DNA of 41,339 nt, taken from IMG/VR virus record IMGVR_UViG_3300010293_000010, positions 1-41,339 of that record; one strand, 5' to 3'. Positions 12,213-34,586 of this stretch are shown here, piece after piece. The first letter of the stretch is position 1. Every line of letters starts with the position of its first letter. The position numbers were made by a program, and so were the translations under genes. The notes beneath the pieces are model-generated. The model had not been told where the DNA came from, did no database searches, and saw only the letters and a program-made list of their open reading frames with translations. The stretch is from a virus.

Positions 12213-13328
12213 ATGATTATAAAAGTAACTCAGTTTCAAGAAGTATGCAAGAAGATTTTAGAGGCAGTTGATTCGTCTGGCGTTGTATTAGTTAGTGAAA
12301 CTCTAGAACTGGAGACAATTAACAAGAAACTTCATCTTAATGTTACAAACAATGAGTATTATGTAACGGTGACTATTGATGTTGATGATGATAGTGAGTT
12401 TCATGCTGTTGTAAATGCGTCACTATTTTTAAATCTCATTTCCAAACTTACTACAGCAGACATGCAAATGACAATCAAAGACAATTCACTTGTCATCAAA
12501 TCAAATGGTAATTACAGAATTCCTTTGATTTTTGAACATGACAAACTTGTTCAGTTGCCAAAGATTAATATTGGTGAAGTCACAAGCAATTTCACTATTT
12601 CAAATGAGATTCTTCAAAGTGTTTTAAAGTTCAACAGTAAAGAACTTCAAAAGAGTGGAATCAAGAAGATTGTTCAAAAAATGTTTTATATTGATGAGAA
12701 AGGTGCAATCACATTTACTAATGGTGCGTGTGTAAACTCTTTCACTCTTCAAAAACCAATCAAACTACTTCTAACTGAGAAGATTGTTAAGTTATTCAAA
12801 CTATTTCTTTCTGATGAAGTTGAGTTTACTCTTGGGGCTGATGTGACATCAAATAACACTATTCAGACAAAGGCTCGTTTCAAAGACAAAGATGTTGAGA
12901 TTACAACCATTCTATCATCAGACAGTTCATTGATTAACAGTGTTCCTGTTGATGCAATTCGTGGTCTTGCTTCTTCACAATTTGCTCGCAGTGTTGTAGT
13001 TGAAAAAAGAGCAGTATTGGATGCAATCAATCGTCTATCATTGTTTGATAAGACAAATGTTGTTACACTTTATACCTATATGAATTTCTCAAGAGAAGGT
13101 CTTGTAATCTATGATACTCGTAGAAATAACTATGAACAAATCTCAACAGTAAGTGCTTATAATTCTGATGAGTCTTATGAGTTTGTTCTTGATACAAATG
13201 ACTTCAGAATCACTCTAGAAACAAATAATGACCAATACATCACTCTTAATTTTGGTAACAAGAGAGCGATTATTATTGACCGTCCTAACATTAAAAACAT
13301 TTTACCAGAATGTATTGTTAGTGCTTAA
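12213..13328 (+). CDS. dnaN: DNA polymerase sliding clamp (beta-clamp type)
   Basis: The protein has 371 residues, the normal length for a bacterial DnaN of three repeated domains. Its first 120 residues follow the family pattern: VTQFQEVCKKILEAV at the start, ELETINKKLHLNVTN, FHAVVNASLFLNLISKL, and MTIKDNSLVIKSNG. No catalytic motif is expected. It should encircle DNA and tether the polymerase, loaded by the three-gene clamp loader at 21108-23808. GAAAGGAAC precedes the ATG. It has its own strong promoter, consistent with a need for many copies. Confidence 0.85.
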   Translation: MIIKVTQFQEVCKKILEAVDSSGVVLVSETLELETINKKLHLNVTNNEYYVTVTIDVDDDSEFHAVVNASLFLNLISKLTTADMQMTIKDNSLVIKSNGNYRIPLIFEHDKLVQLPKINIGEVTSNFTISNEILQSVLKFNSKELQKSGIKKIVQKMFYIDEKGAITFTNGACVNSFTLQKPIKLLLTEKIVKLFKLFLSDEVEFTLGADVTSNNTIQTKARFKDKDVEITTILSSDSSLINSVPVDAIRGLASSQFARSVVVEKRAVLDAINRLSLFDKTNVVTLYTYMNFSREGLVIYDTRRNNYEQISTVSAYNSDESYEFVLDTNDFRITLETNNDQYITLNFGNKRAIIIDRPNIKNILPECIVSA

Positions 13329-13349: not shown

Positions 13350-14600
13350 ATGAGTAAGACACAACCAATTGAAACAAGTCTTGATATCTATTCAACTAAT
13401 CTATTCTCAAATGATGATTACAAGAAAGATATTATTAAGATTTGTGACCTGCACAGAGAGACTACTCCACTGGTATCTAAAGTGCAACTTGATGAGGCAA
13501 CACTAAAAACAAACAACTTCTTTGATTATGACTTCACAGGTGAAATTAAGTTCTATCCTTTTAAGTTAAATGAAATTATTAAGAATCTTGACTTTAAAGT
13601 TCTTGTTATCACAGGGGCTAGTGGGTCTGGTAAATCAACCTTTAGTAAATTCTTTGGTGAAGAAGAAAAAATTGAATGGAATAATTCAAAAGCCATTATC
13701 TCTAACTTTTCATCGTCTGATGAAGCAGTAGAGAAACTTGGTGCTGTTGGACTAAACAGTATTCCAACTTGGTGCAAACCTCGTAGTGTTCTCAGCGTTG
13801 GAGAAGGTTTCCGTGCTGACCTGGCCCGTAGGCTAAAAAGTGGCTGTGTAATTGATGAGTTTACATCTACAGTTGATAGAAATGTTGCTATGTCAACATC
13901 AAAATCAGTTAGTAAATACATCAGAAAAAATAACTTACACAGTTGTGTCTTTGTGTCTTGTCACAAGGATTTCATAGATGTGCTTTGTCCAGACTATGTT
14001 ATCGACCTTGATGATGAAGCACTATATGACACAAGGGGGTTACTTCAGCGAAAATTTGAGTTACAAATCTATGAAAAACAAAACAAACGCGAAATTTGGA
14101 ACATTTTTAAACAACATCACTATTTAAGTGCAGATTTAAATATTGCAAGTAAAATGTTTGTTGCATATCTAAATGATGAGGTTGTCGGAATGTGTGCTAT
14201 ACTTCCACAACCCGGTGTTGCAGGTCTGAAACATCCTGCTTGGAGAGTTCACAGACTTGTTGTTCTTCCAGACTATCAAGGTCTTGGAGTTGCTGTAAAA
14301 TTGCTTGAGTATGTTTGTGACTTGTTTGCAAAGCAAGAAAGAGTTATTTATATTAGAACATCACATGTCAAACTGATTGCTTATATGAGGCACAGCAAAA
14401 GATGGCAAGGTGATGGAGTCTTAGAAAAGTCTCATGCTGACACAGGTGCTTTAAGTGGAAGAAGAGTTCATGAAACAAGATTATCAACTTCATTTAAGTA
14501 TATAGCACCTTGTGAAAATGTTGTCGGCAGACAGTATGATTATTTGACCTTCAAAGACAGAAGCACAGATGATGCTATTGTAAAGCCTAGTTTATTCTAA
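13350..14600 (+). CDS. ABC-type ATPase fused to a GNAT acetyltransferase-like domain
   Basis: The protein has 416 residues in two domains. Residues 80-230: Walker A GASGSGKST (89-97), an ABC-signature-like SVGEGFRADLARRL (149-162), Walker B CVIDEFTSTVD (166-176), and a His-switch-like SCHKDF (203-208). Residues 245-400: a GNAT fold with HHYLS (256-260), VVGMCAILPQPG (278-289), RLVVLPDYQGLGVAVKLL with the acetyl-CoA loop (302-319), and RTSHVKLIAYM (336-346). The HHYLS and PDYQGLG pattern recalls phage Mom-type GNATs that modify adenine in DNA. A DNA-modifying or protective role is therefore possible but unproven; protein or tRNA acetylation are alternatives. It begins 21 bp after dnaN and precedes recU. 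Confidence 0.85.
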   Translation: MSKTQPIETSLDIYSTNLFSNDDYKKDIIKICDLHRETTPLVSKVQLDEATLKTNNFFDYDFTGEIKFYPFKLNEIIKNLDFKVLVITGASGSGKSTFSKFFGEEEKIEWNNSKAIISNFSSSDEAVEKLGAVGLNSIPTWCKPRSVLSVGEGFRADLARRLKSGCVIDEFTSTVDRNVAMSTSKSVSKYIRKNNLHSCVFVSCHKDFIDVLCPDYVIDLDDEALYDTRGLLQRKFELQIYEKQNKREIWNIFKQHHYLSADLNIASKMFVAYLNDEVVGMCAILPQPGVAGLKHPAWRVHRLVVLPDYQGLGVAVKLLEYVCDLFAKQERVIYIRTSHVKLIAYMRHSKRWQGDGVLEKSHADTGALSGRRVHETRLSTSFKYIAPCENVVGRQYDYLTFKDRSTDDAIVKPSLF

Positions 14601-21107: not shown

Positions 21108-22121
21108 ATGAATGAAACATTAGCAGTAAAATATAGACCACAGACTTTCTCAGAAGTTTGCTCACAATTATCAATTAAGAAAATTCTAATGAGACAACTT
21201 GAACTCAAGCAGTTCAAGAATGTTTATCTTTTTAGTGGACCTAGTGGAACAGGTAAAACTACTCTCGCTAGAATTTTTGCTAATGAGATTAATCAATATC
21301 AAGGCTTCCCAATTGAAATTGATGGTGCGTCAAACAATGGTGTTGATAATGTTAAAATGATTATTCAAGGTGCAGTTGAACGCTCTCTTGATTCTACATA
21401 TAAAATCTACATTGTTGATGAGTGTCATATGATTACAACAGCAGGTTGGAATGCATTTTTAAAAGTTCTTGAAGAACCGCCTATGTATACAATCTTTATG
21501 TTTTGCACAACTGATGCTCAAAAGATTCCTGCAACTATTTTAAATAGAGTTCAAAGATTCAATCTAACTAAAGTTAATACTCAAGAGATTAAAGAAAGAC
21601 TTCGTTTTGTCTGTTTAAGAGAGAATTACATTAACTATGAAGAAAGTATTGACTACATCTCTAAAATCAGTTCTGGTGGCATGCGTGATGCTTTGGCAAT
21701 GCTTGACAAGTGTAGTGGATACTCAACTGATATATCAATTCAAAATGTTCTAGAGGCACTTGGTAACTACTCTTATGATTCATTCTTCAAATTGACAAAT
21801 GCAATCATTGATGGTCAAGAACAAATTGTTATCAATCTTATCAATTCATTTTATAATTCAGGAAATGACTTGAAACTGTTTGTAGAACAATATCTAAACT
21901 TCTCCTTAGACCTTGCAAAATACTGTCTATTCAAAGATATGTCTGTGACCATGATACCATTGTCAATGGAAGAAGATTTGAAGTTCTGTGTAGGCATTGA
22001 GAATAATCGTGCTTATTTTAACAACTTAACTGATAAGGTATTAAACATTAAGAATACAATTAAATATGATTCAAATATGAAGACAACCATTGAAATTATG
22101 TTACTTCAACTTTGTAGATAG
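21108..22121 (+). CDS. dnaX: Clamp-loader gamma/tau-type subunit (DnaX-like)
   Basis: The protein has 337 residues. The start LAVKYRPQTFSEVCSQ is the DnaX signature, followed by Walker A SGPSGTGKTT (43-52), EIDGASNNGVD (70-80), Walker B IVDECHM (102-108), AFLKVLEEPP (about 118) and a sensor 2 region near SGGMRDALAMLD. The four-Cys zinc module of bacterial DnaX, normally between Walker A and the EIDAASN motif, is absent: only QYQGFP separates them. There is no tau-like C-terminal extension. It is the motor subunit that opens the clamp encoded at 12213. AAGGAG precedes the start. Confidence 0.93.
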   Translation: MNETLAVKYRPQTFSEVCSQLSIKKILMRQLELKQFKNVYLFSGPSGTGKTTLARIFANEINQYQGFPIEIDGASNNGVDNVKMIIQGAVERSLDSTYKIYIVDECHMITTAGWNAFLKVLEEPPMYTIFMFCTTDAQKIPATILNRVQRFNLTKVNTQEIKERLRFVCLRENYINYEESIDYISKISSGGMRDALAMLDKCSGYSTDISIQNVLEALGNYSYDSFFKLTNAIIDGQEQIVINLINSFYNSGNDLKLFVEQYLNFSLDLAKYCLFKDMSVTMIPLSMEEDLKFCVGIENNRAYFNNLTDKVLNIKNTIKYDSNMKTTIEIMLLQLCR

Positions 22122-22129
22122 AGGTGCAT

Positions 22130-22930
22130 ATGAAAATATTAGGTCAAGAAAAATTATTATCTAAAATCAATTCTTATACATATCAAACATATCCAAAATC
22201 AGTTATTATGCTTGGCGCATCTGGCTCAGGTAAACATTTAATGTCTTCATATATTGCAGACAAATTCAAACTTGAGTTAATAGACATTACAGAACAAATA
22301 TCTCAAGAGTTCATCAACAATATCTCAGCAAGAGTTACTCCATCTCTTTATGTAATTGATGCATCTAAGATTGATGATAGAAAACAAAATATGATTCTAA
22401 AATTTCTAGAGGAGCCTTCTGAATATTCGTTCATTATTATTCTTGCAGAAGACAGAGTTAATTTGTTGCCTACAATCATGAATAGATGCATTATTTTTGA
22501 AATGGAACAATACTCAAGAAGCGTGTTGGAACAGTTTGTAGACATCAATGTTGATAAAGAACTCGCATTGAGTGTTTGCCTGACTCCTGGTCAACTTAAA
22601 GCACTGACAATGATAAATCTATCAGACTTACACACCTTATGCACCAAAATGGTTCAGAAGACTTCTATAGCATCATATCCTAATACACTGTCCATTTCAG
22701 ACAAACTTAACTACAAAGATGAGTTCAATAAGTTTGATGTTGAACTTTTCTTCAATATGCTAACTCATGTCATGTTGAATGAATTTAAAACAACTAATGA
22801 TAAGAAGATTTTAATCTTGTATAATATAACTGTTGAATATGTTAAAAAGATGCGTGACAAAAGACTCAATAGAAAGCATCTTGTTGAGAACTACTTATCA
22901 GCACTTTGGCAAGGAGTGAGAACACAATGA
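22130..22930 (+). CDS. holB: Clamp-loader delta-prime-like subunit
   Basis: The start at 22130 is used; a GTG at 22124 overlaps the GAGG ribosome site. The protein has 266 residues. A P-loop-like ASGSGKHL (about 30-37) is kept, with Lys followed by His, not Ser/Thr. A degenerate Walker B (SLYVIDASKID) and the typical KFLEEPSEYSFIIILAED and LLPTIMNRC segments follow, as in HolB/DnaX paralogues. In the clamp loader, delta-prime contributes the arginine finger to a neighbouring subunit. It follows dnaX directly and overlaps the third loader gene by 4 bp. Confidence 0.82.
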   Translation: MKILGQEKLLSKINSYTYQTYPKSVIMLGASGSGKHLMSSYIADKFKLELIDITEQISQEFINNISARVTPSLYVIDASKIDDRKQNMILKFLEEPSEYSFIIILAEDRVNLLPTIMNRCIIFEMEQYSRSVLEQFVDINVDKELALSVCLTPGQLKALTMINLSDLHTLCTKMVQKTSIASYPNTLSISDKLNYKDEFNKFDVELFFNMLTHVMLNEFKTTNDKKILILYNITVEYVKKMRDKRLNRKHLVENYLSALWQGVRTQ

Positions 22931-23808
22931 ATATTATTGAATTAAAGAAGAACATTGAAGATAAAACTCTTAATGATTCTTTTCTCATTTTAAAATATTC
23001 TGACTTTCCATTTATTGCTAGACAATATGTTGAGGCAATCAGTGAGTTTAAAAAAAAGCCTATTGTGTATGTAGAATCACTTGATGATATCACATCTGAC
23101 ATTTTTGGTGAAGATGATAGTCTGTATGTAATGAATATTGACAAGATTGATAAACAATTTAGGTCTGATTCATTAAACAATAAGATTGTCATATGCAAAT
23201 CAATTGATGTAGATGTTCTTGAAGGTATGAAGCAATATGTAATTGAGATACCAAAACTACAACAATGGCAAATTAGAGCCTACACAGCAAAGAATCTTCC
23301 TGGACTGTCAAATGAAGAGATAAACTGGCTCAGTGATGTTGCTAAAGATATTTACAGACTATCAAATGAAGTTGATAAAATTAAAATATTTAATAAGAAA
23401 GACCAGGGACAAATATTTAGTTTACTTAACAAAGAAGATGCTTATGGTGATTTAAATTCTAGCACTATCTTCAACTTCACAAATGCAATTACAAAGAGAG
23501 ATATTAAGACAGCAAAAAACATCTTAGAAACAATTGAAACAATAGATGTAGAACCCATGGGTGTTGTCTCAATTCTTTACAAGTCATTTAAGAATATTCT
23601 AGATATTCAAATGTCTGCTAATGCAACCGCAGAATCTCTAGGAATGAATCCAAAACAATTTAGTGCAATCAAATATAATCTAGGAAAGTTCACTAACACA
23701 GAACTAATAAAGATATTTGACATGATTACACTTGTTGATTATCAATTAAAGAGTGGCAATCTTCCCAATGACAAGATTATTGACTATCTGTTAATTAATA
23801 TTCTTTGA
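22927..23808 (+). CDS. holA: Clamp-loader delta-like subunit
   Basis: The ATG at 22927 (ATGA overlap with the delta-prime gene) has AAGGAG at 22911-22916. An upstream TTG frame extension to 22906 is rejected. The protein has 293 residues. The N-terminal part (PIVYVESLDDI, DSLYVMNIDKI, NKIVICKSID) is a degenerate AAA+ domain without a P-loop, as in HolA. The C-terminal part (FNFTNAITKRDIKTAKNILETIE, VSILYKSFKNILDIQ, YQLKSGNLPNDKIIDYLL) is the typical delta collar domain. Delta is the clamp-opening wrench. All three genes run in one operon. Confidence 0.82.
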   Translation: MNIIELKKNIEDKTLNDSFLILKYSDFPFIARQYVEAISEFKKKPIVYVESLDDITSDIFGEDDSLYVMNIDKIDKQFRSDSLNNKIVICKSIDVDVLEGMKQYVIEIPKLQQWQIRAYTAKNLPGLSNEEINWLSDVAKDIYRLSNEVDKIKIFNKKDQGQIFSLLNKEDAYGDLNSSTIFNFTNAITKRDIKTAKNILETIETIDVEPMGVVSILYKSFKNILDIQMSANATAESLGMNPKQFSAIKYNLGKFTNTELIKIFDMITLVDYQLKSGNLPNDKIIDYLLINIL

Positions 23809-27976: not shown

Positions 27977-28824
27977 TGGGAATGACATACAAGAAACCAA
28001 ACATGAAGTATACAGATATGTGCATATATTTCGATGCAAATATCTATAAAGCAGATAGAGATGATAACATTCTTTATCAGTATCTGTATCACATTTGTTA
28101 CATGCTGGCCAGTAAGGGAAGATACTTCAAATACTTTGATGATTATGACATCTTTGCACTGTATTCATCATCAAGACTTTATCTTAGATATCCTTCAAAA
28201 GACACATGTGCTGACACACTTCCTGAGAAGAAAATTAAATCAATACTAAACTATACTAAGGCAACCATTTATCCTCTTAAGGTTGATTATCAAAGAGAAA
28301 ACTTTGCTCAGACATATAACTATGCTGATGAAGGTCAAATGGAAAATCTTGTGAATATGACAAAACAATACATTCAAAAAGATTATTCACAAGGACTTGT
28401 AGAGGCAGTATTTGACACACTTAAAATACTTCCAGGAATTATAAGAAATAGAATAAAAGATACACCATATAAAAATGACATATTAGTGAGCAAGAGGTTG
28501 TATATGTCATGTCTTCTTACCTTCATTAATAGCATGACACTAAGCAATGATAAAATTAAAAAAATATCAAGTAAGAGTAACAGTGCTGATAAAGAAGATT
28601 TATATATCAAGAGTCTTCAGAGAGAGCGACAGGATGCTGTGATGACTTGGCATCTTGATGATTCTTTTAAGGACTATGTTAGAATTCTCACTAATAAAAT
28701 AAGAAGAGATATTGAGAATGAGATAACTGACACTCAAAAGTCATTCAGTCTAACTGATTCAGAGTTAGAAGGAATTATGGCAACAGCAATCTCTAATAAA
28801 GATAATTATGAGGAGAACTACTAA
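27976..28824 (+). CDS. Possible sigma-like protein downstream of SbcCD, 282 aa
   Basis: The gene starts in TAATG overlap with sbcC. The protein is helical. Residues 9-110 (KYTDMCIYFDANIYK, LYQYLYHICYMLASK, FDDYDIFALYSSSRLYLRYP, then KIKSILNYTKATIYPL) have the spacing of a sigma region 2 helix set: a core helix, an acidic turn, and a helix with aromatic residues. In T4, gene 55 (late sigma) is close to 46/47, so the position is suggestive. The middle and end are polar helices with no clear region 4 helix-turn-helix. Assignment as sigma is uncertain, and it may be an unrelated phage regulator. Confidence 0.68.
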   Translation: MGMTYKKPNMKYTDMCIYFDANIYKADRDDNILYQYLYHICYMLASKGRYFKYFDDYDIFALYSSSRLYLRYPSKDTCADTLPEKKIKSILNYTKATIYPLKVDYQRENFAQTYNYADEGQMENLVNMTKQYIQKDYSQGLVEAVFDTLKILPGIIRNRIKDTPYKNDILVSKRLYMSCLLTFINSMTLSNDKIKKISSKSNSADKEDLYIKSLQRERQDAVMTWHLDDSFKDYVRILTNKIRRDIENEITDTQKSFSLTDSELEGIMATAISNKDNYEENY

Positions 28825-29192
28825 TGAAGATGGAAGAATTAAATGCATTAAAGGTTAATGATATATACTCACTGATGCTGTTTGCAATTTACAAGATGAA
28901 AGATGTTCCTGAATATGCAACTCTTAGTGAACTATCATATGTTTTAAAGAAAGATAGTCTGCTAAATTTCTTTGAGTATTTTGGTGGAACAACAATCACA
29001 GTTCCAACAATGAGTGAGTTTAAGGTTGTCATTAAAGCATTGATGCTATATCAATATGTTAAACTTGAGAATATTGAGTTCAACAAAGCGGTAAAAATGA
29101 TTGACTTAGAAGAAAATAAACTGAAAGATGTTAAACACTGCTTTTGTGTTATTGGCGACATTCTAGACAAATATGACTTCAAAAGATTTTAA
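28824..29192 (+). CDS. Hypothetical helical protein, 122 aa
   Basis: It starts in TAATG overlap with the preceding gene. It is a helical protein with LFAIYKMKDVPEYATLSEL, a turn FFEYFGGTTITVPTMSEF (about 47-64), and FKVVIKALMLYQYV. The GG.T..VP turn followed by helices faintly resembles Mor/C-type transcription activators, but no helix-turn-helix can be shown. The end overlaps the next gene by about 20 bp. It sits in a block of probable regulators after SbcC. The function is unknown. Confidence 0.65.
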   Translation: MKMEELNALKVNDIYSLMLFAIYKMKDVPEYATLSELSYVLKKDSLLNFFEYFGGTTITVPTMSEFKVVIKALMLYQYVKLENIEFNKAVKMIDLEENKLKDVKHCFCVIGDILDKYDFKRF

Positions 29193-31750: not shown

Positions 31751-32656
31751 ATGAACTATAAAACATATCAACACATTGAAAAATTAGGAACAACAGATGT
31801 AGAAGGTATTTTATCTGGAACATGTTACTTATCTTATAAGATTGACGGAACTAATGCCTGTGTCTGGTTGAAAGATGACCAGACATTAGGCTTTGGCTCA
31901 AGAAAAAGAGAACTAAGTGTGTCTGAGGATAATGCAGGCTTTCTAAATACTGTGTCTAGTAAAGATTACACAGATGAATACAATGATGTTTTAAACTATT
32001 TGAAAAGACATTCTAGTCACATCATTTATGGTGAATGGCTAGTTAGACACACTCTTGCTAAATATAATAAAGATGCATGGAGAAAACTCTACGTGTTTGA
32101 CATCTTTGATGCAGACACTGATAGTTATATCAACTATGATGTTTACTCAAAAGAATTTGAAGCAGAATTTAAGAACATTAAATTTATTCCTATTATTGCA
32201 AAACTTGAAAATCCAACTGAAGACATTATTAAGTCATATCTTGATAAAACAGGTGATTGGCTTATTACTGAAGGTCTAGGTGAAGGAATTGTCATCAAGA
32301 ATTATAATTACAGAAATAGATTTGGTCACATCAAATGGGCTAAAGTTCTAACTGAAGACTTTAAGAACTCAAAATCAAGAGTAAGAGAAGAAAACTCAGA
32401 CAACAAAGATAAGAATCTTATTGAATATGAAATCTCTAAGATGATTACAGATGAGCATATTCTCAAAGAGAAATCAAAGATTATTGAACACTATGGTGAC
32501 TGGTCATCAAAATACATTTTTGAACTTTTGAACAGGTCTTTTACTGAGTTCTGGAGAGATAATTGGGAAATCATTCTTAAGAAGTTTCGTAATCCAATCA
32601 TCAATTTTTCAGCACTGAAGAAATTAAGTGATGACAGAGTAAAAGAACTTTTATAA
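31751..32656 (+). CDS. RNA ligase (T4 Rnl2-like nucleotidyltransferase)
   Basis: The protein has 301 residues. Nucleotidyltransferase motifs in order: motif I YKIDGTN with nucleophile Lys30, RKREL (about 51), motif III IYGEWLVRHT (about 96), motif IV GEGIVIKNY (about 181), and motif V IKWAKV (about 197). The C-terminal 80 residues are helical, as in the Rnl2 group. Such ligases seal nicks in RNA, often to repair tRNA cleaved by host defence nucleases; that role is known for T4 Rnl1/Pnkp and only inferred here. No polynucleotide kinase gene is seen nearby. GAAAGGAAT precedes the ATG. Confidence 0.88.
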   Translation: MNYKTYQHIEKLGTTDVEGILSGTCYLSYKIDGTNACVWLKDDQTLGFGSRKRELSVSEDNAGFLNTVSSKDYTDEYNDVLNYLKRHSSHIIYGEWLVRHTLAKYNKDAWRKLYVFDIFDADTDSYINYDVYSKEFEAEFKNIKFIPIIAKLENPTEDIIKSYLDKTGDWLITEGLGEGIVIKNYNYRNRFGHIKWAKVLTEDFKNSKSRVREENSDNKDKNLIEYEISKMITDEHILKEKSKIIEHYGDWSSKYIFELLNRSFTEFWRDNWEIILKKFRNPIINFSALKKLSDDRVKELL

Positions 32657-32678: not shown

Positions 32679-33032
32679 ATGGCGAAGAAACATGTAATGA
32701 GTTATTATAAACAAATTCAAGATTTATACTTTGAGATGCTTGAGGATGTTAAAGATTTTGATGAAGCACTAAAAGGTGGCTATGTTACTGAAGAGCAGGT
32801 TGAACAATCTCAGATGATGCTTGACAAAACCAAGGACCACTATGAAAGACTTTCGTATATCATTCTTCTTTTAAATCAACCAACAAGAGATAAAAAACTA
32901 AATAGACATAAGAGTCAAAATAAAAAATTGTATAATTACTTTGAGAACACTTCCCAAGACAGAGTTCTCAGTGAGATACAAGATGATTTGAAAAAGTTTA
33001 AAGAATATATAAAGAAGGAAAAAACAAAATGA
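32679..33032 (+). CDS. Hypothetical helical protein, 117 aa
   Basis: The protein begins MAKKHVMSYYKQIQDLYFEML and continues as charged helices (DVKDFDEALKGG, VTEEQVEQSQMMLDKTKDHYE, LSYIILLLNQPTRDKK). A similar Tyr-rich start and Leu-rich helix occur in uncharacterised proteins of large Firmicutes phages. The C-terminus is very basic. It overlaps the next gene by 4 bp (ATGA). The function is unknown. Confidence 0.65.
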   Translation: MAKKHVMSYYKQIQDLYFEMLEDVKDFDEALKGGYVTEEQVEQSQMMLDKTKDHYERLSYIILLLNQPTRDKKLNRHKSQNKKLYNYFENTSQDRVLSEIQDDLKKFKEYIKKEKTK

Positions 33033-33301
33033 GAATTGAAGACTTTGTAAAAGACTTAGGAATTGAAAATGAAGTTGAGTATGATAATGGTGTTGCAACT
33101 GTTATCTTAAAGGACAGTAATGATTACGCAAAGATATACACTATTTTGTCTGACTCTGATTTAGTAGACCTTGAGCCTGAGTCTGTAGTCATTAATCAGA
33201 ATTTAACATCTCTTAAATTAACAAATGAAGATTTTGAATTGACTCTTTCAGCAGACCTAGAGAGAGATATTTATAGGTTAGTGATTGAGGAGGTAATTTA
33301 A
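33029..33301 (+). CDS. Hypothetical acidic protein, 90 aa
   Basis: It starts in ATGA overlap with the preceding gene. It is a small acidic alpha/beta protein: MRIEDFVKDLGIENEVEYDN, VATVILKDSNDYAKIYTIL, then VVINQNLTSLKLTNEDFELTL. The repeated strand pattern suggests a compact beta sheet. GATTGAGGAGG at its end provides the ribosome site for the next gene. The function is unknown. Confidence 0.65.
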   Translation: MRIEDFVKDLGIENEVEYDNGVATVILKDSNDYAKIYTILSDSDLVDLEPESVVINQNLTSLKLTNEDFELTLSADLERDIYRLVIEEVI

Positions 33302-33302
33302 T

Positions 33303-33992
33303 ATGACATATTATGGATTTGAAATATCACAAGACATTCAGAAACTATCTCAGCGTTCTGATGAGATAAATATGAGAACTGATTATACCAAGACCGCTCA
33401 AACAATTCGTGACTTGAAGGACACCATCAGAGCAAACAAGAGTCTTAATATTACATCTTTATCTGCATCACAGATTGAAAGATTTGATAGAGTTTTCTGC
33501 ATCAACTTTAATGGTGATGTGAGAGCATTTATTAATCCTGTTATTACAAAAACTGAAGGATTCAAATTTGTTCGTGAAAAGAGTCCAAGCATTCCTGATA
33601 GAGAGTTTATTGTTCCAAGAAGTGAGGTCATCTATGCTGTTTATCAGAGAGGTGATGGAAGACCGGAATCAAACAAGTTTGAAGGTCTGGCAGCCGAAAT
33701 CTTTCAACAACAAGTTGACATGCTTGATGGTGTGTTAATTTCTGATTTTGGTCTTGAGATTCTTCCTGAGTTTGAATCAGCAACTGATGAAGAGAAGCAA
33801 GAACTACTTAAAGAGTATATGAAGTTCTTAAAGCGTAAATATAAAAAACTCAACAAAGAAATTGAGAATGACCCCGACTTGAAAAAGATTTCAGATGGTG
33901 CTAAATTTATTAATGCAGTCGCAAAAGGAGAGGTTCAATTGGAAAAGTTGAACAATGAACAAAAGACTGAATCTGAAGAACCTAAGAATTAA
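33303..33992 (+). CDS. Peptide-deformylase-like pseudoenzyme
   Basis: The protein has 229 residues. Residues 10-150 follow the peptide deformylase fold in order: a helical start, AFINPVI (75-81), then EKSPSIPDREFIVPR (92-106) in place of EGCLSIP...VPR, VIYAVYQRGDGR (109-120) and GLAAEIFQQQVDMLDGVLISDF (128-149) in place of the QHExDHL..G.LF.D helix. The zinc Cys has become Ser or Pro, and both His ligands and the catalytic Glu are replaced (QQQVDM). The GxGLAAxQ motif is also degenerate (LNITSLSASQ). The fold call is strong, the enzymatic activity surely lost. A charged helical tail of about 75 residues follows. Confidence 0.75.
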   Translation: MTYYGFEISQDIQKLSQRSDEINMRTDYTKTAQTIRDLKDTIRANKSLNITSLSASQIERFDRVFCINFNGDVRAFINPVITKTEGFKFVREKSPSIPDREFIVPRSEVIYAVYQRGDGRPESNKFEGLAAEIFQQQVDMLDGVLISDFGLEILPEFESATDEEKQELLKEYMKFLKRKYKKLNKEIENDPDLKKISDGAKFINAVAKGEVQLEKLNNEQKTESEEPKN

Positions 33993-33994
33993 TA

Positions 33995-34360
33995 ATGAAA
34001 TTTGATTATAGACAGATAAGAAAATTTGAAGCAACAATTGATATCAGCAACATTGGTCAATGTGCCCTTGAAATGACAGACGCTAATGGAATGTATCATT
34101 ATCTAGTTATCAAAACAATCATGGGTGAAACAGTTGTATTTGAACAAGGTCCAGTTTTTCTTGGCCTTAAGTTCGTTGGTAATAACATCTCCTGCACCAT
34201 ATCAAGATTTGAATATAATGAAACGAAGATAAAGAAAATAATCAAAACATTCATTTCTGATAGCCCTAAAGTTAAGGTTGAAGATGTAAGACAACTAACA
34301 ATGAGTGAGGCACTTGATTTATGTGTAGACCTTGTTGAGTGCATGAGAGAGTATATATAA
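33995..34360 (+). CDS. Hypothetical protein, 121 aa
   Basis: The gene starts 2 bp after the deformylase-like gene. The N-terminal 75 residues are beta strands (ATIDISNIGQCALEMTDANG, YHYLVIKTIMGETVVFEQGP, GNNISCTISRFEYNE), and the C-terminus has helices (KIIKTFISDSPK, MSEALDLCVDLVECM). It may form a complex with its neighbour by genomic pairing. No motif or family is recognised. Confidence 0.65.
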   Translation: MKFDYRQIRKFEATIDISNIGQCALEMTDANGMYHYLVIKTIMGETVVFEQGPVFLGLKFVGNNISCTISRFEYNETKIKKIIKTFISDSPKVKVEDVRQLTMSEALDLCVDLVECMREYI

Positions 34361-34382: not shown

Positions 34383-34586
34383 ATGGCAAAAGATGTTCAA
34401 ATAATAAGAGACTTTAGTGGACGAATCGTTGGTTACATTGAAACTGACAGTCAAGGAAACAAAATTGTCAGAGACTTTTATAAAGTCATTCTAGGTAAAT
34501 ATGATAAGAAGAGTAATATCACAAGAGACTTTTATGGAAAAATTCTTGCTAGAGGTGACATATCTTCCAGTCTCATTAAGTTTTAA
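34383..34586 (+). CDS. Small beta-repeat protein (beta-flower-like), 67 aa
   Basis: The protein consists of about three near-repeats: IIRDFSGRIVGYIETD (about 7-22), KIVRDFYKVILGKYDKK (about 28-44) and NITRDFYGKILARGD (about 46-60). The repeating RDF-x-G-x-I-x-G plan is that of short beta-repeat miniproteins related to 4-fold beta flower domains. The function is unknown. TTTGGAGGTAAATACACA is the ribosome site. A terminator follows, so this is the last gene of the unit. Confidence 0.68.
   Translation: MAKDVQIIRDFSGRIVGYIETDSQGNKIVRDFYKVILGKYDKKSNITRDFYGKILARGDISSSLIKF

Follow-up and report, generated by a model that had tools for sequence, protein, structure and literature searches.

The window, by which we mean the whole 41,339-nucleotide stretch of viral DNA analyzed here, carries at 33303-33992 a gene whose product folds like peptide deformylase (PDF), the bacterial protein-trimming enzyme (EC 3.5.1.88). 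This gene stands in a cassette of five genes, which in the window overlap or stand 1 to 22 bases apart. Active-site residues were numbered by alignment on the enterobacterial (Salmonella) PDF. The features of the locus are:

28824..29192, + strand: conserved neighbour, used as an independent bait for the core-gene test
32679..33032, + strand: cassette gene, 117 aa; overlaps the next gene by 4 bases; at most 7.5 kb from the PDF-like gene and on the same strand in 31 of 33 loci
33029..33301, + strand: cassette gene, 90 aa; ends 1 base before the PDF-like gene; 29 of 33 loci
33303..33992, + strand: putative PDF-fold pseudoenzyme gene, 229 aa, coordinates including the stop codon (ORF, PF01327, AlphaFold, VIA-align)
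33456..33473, + strand: degenerate motif I, SLSASQ (canonical GLAAxQ); Q57, equivalent to Gln50, kept and Gly45 lost (alignment)
33576..33590, + strand: degenerate motif II, EKSPS (canonical EGCLS); metal-ligand Cys90 replaced by Ser94 (alignment)
33705..33722, + strand: degenerate motif III, QQQVDM (canonical QHExDH); His132 replaced by Gln, Glu133 by Gln and His136 by Met (alignment)
33756..33989, + strand: added C-terminal tail with helices 162-189 and 191-207; last 14 residues of low confidence (AlphaFold model)
33995..34360, + strand: cassette gene, 121 aa; begins 2 bases after the PDF-like gene; 27 of 33 loci; model pLDDT 81.6
34383..34586, + strand: cassette gene, 67 aa, with RDFYGKILG-type repeats; 23 of 33 loci

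Fold and active site of the window protein

Another contig record of this virus, L001, contains an identical copy of the 33303-33992 ORF. The encoded protein matched the Pfam family PF01327 (Pep_deformylase) over residues 14-148 with an E-value of 8.6e-20 and 71.3 bits (cut-off: 22.8 bits), and pairwise HMMER alignment matched it to solved PDB deformylases at the sequence level. Its AlphaFold model, calculated with 26 aligned relatives as input, had a mean pLDDT of 88.5 and a pTM of 0.80, and the strong structural matches of this model in the PDB were deformylases (VIA-align Z about 22.8, rmsd 1.9 to 2.4 Å, about 147 aligned residues). The Pfam match, the PDB sequence matches and the predicted model with its structural matches make the fold assignment secure, and we conclude that the window protein is a true PDF homologue. 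A chance resemblance was ruled out by the Pfam E-value and the structural Z. A sequencing error or frameshift artefact was also rejected, because the ORF is intact, the second record is the same and the nearest relatives lack Cys90 and His136 as well.

Canonical PDFs such as that of E. coli have the same fold as the window protein from about residue 3 to residue 155 (Z about 22.7, rmsd 1.9 Å) and are clearly homologous to it in sequence; the window protein differs from them by its lost metal ligands and general base, by the added helical tail and by its failure to reach the cut-off of the NCBIfam PDF equivalog TIGR00079 (46.1 bits; cut-off: 103.95 bits). The canonical relative L038 passed this cut-off with 105.3 bits.

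The metal of PDF is bound by a Cys and two His residues (PMC5591237). In motif I, the enterobacterial GIGLAATQ corresponds to ITSLSASQ in the window protein, with Gly45 gone and Gln50 retained. In motif II, EGCLS has become EKSPS, whereby Gly89, Cys90 and Leu91 are gone and Glu88 and Ser92 retained; in motif III, QHEMDH has become QQQVDM, with loss of His132, Glu133 and His136 and retention of Gln131 and Asp135. The original prediction had proposed a deformylase fold, the joint loss of the Cys, both His ligands and the general-base Glu, and a long charged helical tail. Indeed, the structure prediction and structure search returned PDFs, the alignment placed Ser, Gln, Met and Gln at the four lost positions, and the model confidently predicted two helices in the tail of about 78 residues, the final 14 of which have a pLDDT under 50. 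The further claim that every catalytic feature is changed holds for the ligands and the base but not for Gln50 (Q57 in the window protein), the oxyanion residue that stabilizes the reaction intermediate. Since the Cys, both His and the Glu are absent, a catalytic metal and water activation in the known PDF way are impossible for this protein, and we infer that it is enzymatically inactive, judging by its sequence.

Graded loss of catalytic residues in a phage family

Three search rounds in viral contigs, a neighbour-led scan and a profile search of the resulting contigs yielded a family of 38 distinct sequences, all of them with the PDF domain (38/38). Some members (L015:7947-8609, L087 and L109) have an open frame only if TAG codes for an amino acid, taken here as Gln, and represent stop-codon recoding inside this phage group. 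The bacterial genome collection contained only two members, on contigs that binning had assigned to rumen Acholeplasmatales and Bacillales; these are probably phage contigs, since the first has internal TAG codons. In a tree built without the motif columns, with ten canonical PDFs and no type 3 reference sequences, the family formed one clade with a support of 99. Among PDB structures, the family profile matched the PDF of Synechococcus phage S-SSM7 (3uwa) best. The window protein grouped with L049 and L035 (support 95), which both lack Cys90, Glu133 and His136; its identity was 52% to L049, 45% to L035 and 44% to L038.

All ten canonical PDFs kept each of the five catalytic residues (Gln50, Cys90, His132, Glu133 and His136). 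In the phage family, two members (L038 and L085) retained all five and 36 of the 38 had lost at least one, and whole canonical motifs (GLAAPQ, EGCLS and QHELDH) were present only in L038. Other members kept the Cys and HExxH, with Gln50 replaced by Ala or Gly (L041, L042, L046, L050, L057, L087 and L096), several of these being at 36-42% identity. Still others were changed only at Glu133, to His in L036 and L043, Cys in L052 and Gln in L097, and a large clade had DQxxQ or similar instead of HExxH. Metal binding or catalysis may therefore remain relevant to the lineages of the nine members, out of 38, in which the metal ligands and Glu133 are retained. Parsimony required at least four changes for the metal set, at least six for Glu133 and at least eight for Cys90, the exact number of losses being uncertain because many inner forks of the tree are weakly supported; in our reading of the tree, the counts would rise if a catalytic residue, once lost, could not be regained.

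The mean entropy of the five catalytic columns was 1.64 bits versus a domain mean of 1.67 bits, compared with 0.00 bits in canonical PDFs. New invariants have replaced the old ones: K39, R63, F65, F69, F76, R106 and Y114 in the domain, as well as G150, Y172, F202 and G209 towards or in the tail, are nearly invariant in the family, and so is P79. A loss of the ligands in all homologues, which the original prediction would have taken as support, applies to the nearest clade, which lacks Cys90, Glu133 and His136, but not to the canonical L038 or to L085 with its five catalytic residues. Homologues that keep the Cys and both His do exist, and they reveal a gradual, repeated decay. We conclude that erasure of the active site is graded across the family, not uniform.

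To assess selection, we calculated pairwise NG86 dN/dS values, with dS being saturated in most family pairs. The ratio was 0.21 for L020/L090, both inactive and with unsaturated dS, and 0.04 to 0.19 in the other computable pairs, where the values are rough at a dS of about 1 or more; the other inactive pairs, with high dS, gave 0.05-0.11. Since the catalytic columns are as variable as the average while dN/dS is 0.04-0.21, catalysis was shed repeatedly, whereas the fold, the tail and the place of the gene persisted.

Each of 16 phage records contained exactly one PF01327 gene (16/16), and no second, active PDF was found in these records, most of which are incomplete. Used as a bait, gene 28824 recovered 16 further contigs, 14 of which carry a family member; the remaining two end 1.3 to 3.2 kb past 28824, before the usual position of the PDF-like gene, and all evaluable contigs were thus positive (14/14). 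No family member was found in Bacillus phage SP-15, Listeria phage LIS04 and Streptococcus phage vB_SagM-GXN1, more distant myoviruses that share SbcC, SbcD and gene 28824 with the group. We conclude that the PDF-like gene is a core gene of this group of large gut and rumen phages.

The conserved cassette and the added tail

The genes 32679, 33029, PDF-like, 33995 and 34383 stay together in two gene orders and in both halves of the family. This adjacency survives rearrangement and therefore suggests a joint function; it does not prove a complex, and conservation of the cassette can reflect shared regulation instead. The small protein encoded at 34383-34586, with its RDFxGKILG-type repeats, is 47-60% identical across loci of distant phages. 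PHROGs and Pfam gave no reliable match for the cassette partners, and neither a virion gene nor a ribosome-related gene was recognized in the cassette. The model of the 33995 protein repeatedly matched WGR DNA-break-binding domains with Z 4-5 (top: 6.2), which is below trust level, and no sequence profile backs this resemblance. In a distance-matrix analysis of coevolution with the PDF-like gene, the cassette genes scored only slightly higher (partial rho 0.31-0.40) than most other neighbours (0.13-0.29), and o27976, which lies outside the cassette, was higher under lighter control.

In phages from the window's half of the family, the gap that separates the PDF-like gene from the 33995 homologue is a hot spot for insertions (L036, L043, L052, L067 and L083; in L062 the insertion follows the PDF-like gene). 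The cargo is varied and includes tail-fibre-like and OB-fold-like genes; the window phage has none there. At L009:9600-11744 (also L067:16723-18867), a radical SAM/SPASM-like gene followed by a gene for a Cys-rich repeat protein occupies this gap, a possible phage-borne modified-peptide pair. Upstream of the cassette, the window has an RNA ligase gene at 31751-32656 (PF09414, E-value 2.7e-19), between a metallophosphoesterase gene and the cassette; no other compared locus has one at this place. Elsewhere in the window (12213-13328 and 21108-23808) we noted a bacterial-type sliding clamp with a weak PF00712 match and three consecutive clamp-loader-like genes, and at 13350-14600 a protein of 416 aa that, read by eye, seems to join an ABC-type ATPase to a C-terminal half resembling GNAT acetyltransferases.

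The added tail was present in all family members not cut by a contig end. Its residues Y172, I187, F202 and G209 are nearly invariant across the family, the canonical member L038 included. Since L038 also has the tail, the tail is older than, or independent of, the catalytic loss. In the window's half of the family the tails are mostly acidic (typically -9 to -20; -2 in the window protein), whereas those of clade B (L018-L034 and others) have basic ends, mostly +9 to +12 over the last 40 residues.

Relation to known deformylases and possible function

The phage PDFs studied so far (Vp16, Synechococcus phage S-SSM7 and the marine type 4 enzymes) are phage-encoded proteins with the PDF fold, as here. 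Most of them are reported to keep the three motifs and to have a short C-terminus, and two that were tested are active in vivo (PMC5591237); the window protein departs from this type by its degenerate motifs and its long tail. Substitutions in the catalytic motifs and weak or no activity are known from type 3 PDFs, which include those of archaea and trypanosomatids and the accessory PDF of S. aureus and S. pneumoniae (PMC5591237, PMC12690207), and many accessory bacterial PDFs depart from the motifs (PMC12690207). The window protein shares such substitutions with type 3 PDFs, a likeness at the level of the motifs. However, type 3 PDFs are cellular and in bacteria stand beside an active PDF. 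The gene described here is instead the one PDF copy of its phage and belongs to a fixed cassette, and its family has the tail in common and grades from canonical sites to fully erased ones. The protein A0A8S5MKA8 ('Polypeptide deformylase', Siphoviridae sp. ctrpg19, BFVD), 38% identical from end to end, tail included (TM 0.87/0.94), is very likely a family member already public in UniProt under the enzyme name, annotated by similarity. Our literature search, which covered only a minority of subscription journals, found no paper on dead phage deformylases or on a phage-wide family of tail-bearing, cassette-bound PDFs that lost the active site repeatedly. Inactive PDFs are already known in cells (type 3); what appears new by this search is a phage family with repeated loss of the active site.

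The role other than deformylation that had been suggested for the window protein is supported by purifying selection, core status and the conserved cassette. Because the gene remains under selection in relatives whose active sites are mostly damaged, the protein probably now serves for binding and not for catalysis. There is about an even chance, in our judgement, that the PDF-fold pseudoenzyme is a binding subunit without catalysis, its most likely partners being the cassette proteins. An ancestral phage would have captured an active PDF, and a tail-bearing version became a fixed core gene in this large-phage group, a step visible in the synteny, the core presence and the tail of canonical and dead members. 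Catalysis then disappeared by routes that differ between lineages, with the fold, the tail and the place in the five-gene cassette remaining under the purifying selection that we detected. In the window protein, the family-specific PDF core and the helical tail would hold partner proteins, most plausibly the adjacent co-encoded cassette proteins, to which the gene order points, and deformylation would be supplied by the host PDF. More tentatively, and at somewhat less than even odds, the cassette may encode a conserved five-gene machine across large phages, in which a former deformylase, now serving purely for binding, is the central scaffold; its intermediates range from the intact enzyme to full erasure.

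The main rival to the binding of cassette partners is docking of the dead PDF at the ribosomal exit tunnel, where it might block or delay the host PDF, methionine aminopeptidase or other factors, or protect phage nascent chains. This idea is natural because the E. coli PDF sits beside the exit tunnel and docks there through its C-terminal helix (PMC5591237); the added helices of the family are at that same C-terminal end, and the basic ends of the clade B tails would fit it. The acidic tails in the window's half weigh somewhat against it, although the two halves of the family might differ here; the conserved tail residues are hydrophobic or Gly and not basic, and the cassette lacks a recognized ribosome-related gene. 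We consider ribosome docking unlikely on this balance. For a role in particle assembly, the other site of action proposed in the original prediction, the cassette offers no recognized virion gene.

An enzyme with changed or residual chemistry, for example metal-independent hydrolysis or an active site reassembled around other residues, would be consistent with the retention of Gln50, Glu88, Ser92, Gln131 and Asp135 in the window protein and with Cys66, which is frequent in the family and missing from the canonical L038. Nevertheless, the dead members share no full polar set in the old pocket, the columns of Cys90, Glu133 and His136 vary freely, and neither Gly45 nor Gly89, both without variation among canonical PDFs, is retained, which makes this explanation improbable. 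Different lineages have lost different catalytic residues, as would be expected of a decaying, now functionless leftover of a once useful auxiliary deformylase, but the reading frames are open throughout, dN/dS is well below 1, tail and cassette are conserved, and the gene is present in all evaluable contigs and in single copy in all records, so that mere decay is very improbable. Least probable of all is an active PDF with non-canonical ligands. Motif departures alone are no proof of inactivity, as no PDF with strictly classical motifs is present in 24.5% of reference bacterial genomes (PMC12690207). In the window protein, however, the three metal ligands and the general base are all gone; its nearest clade keeps only one or two of them, and its own score of 46 bits falls short of the equivalog cut-off of 104 bits.

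PDF genes in phages are commonly interpreted as encoding active enzymes that accelerate protein maturation. The family described here keeps the gene under selection while it has discarded the enzyme several times over, which cautions against annotating such phage genes as deformylases and points to a conserved function beyond deformylation in large gut and rumen phages. The graded series should be useful for studying the change from enzyme to pseudoenzyme. If the scaffold reading is true, the conversion of an enzyme to a scaffold would be traceable residue by residue through living intermediates.
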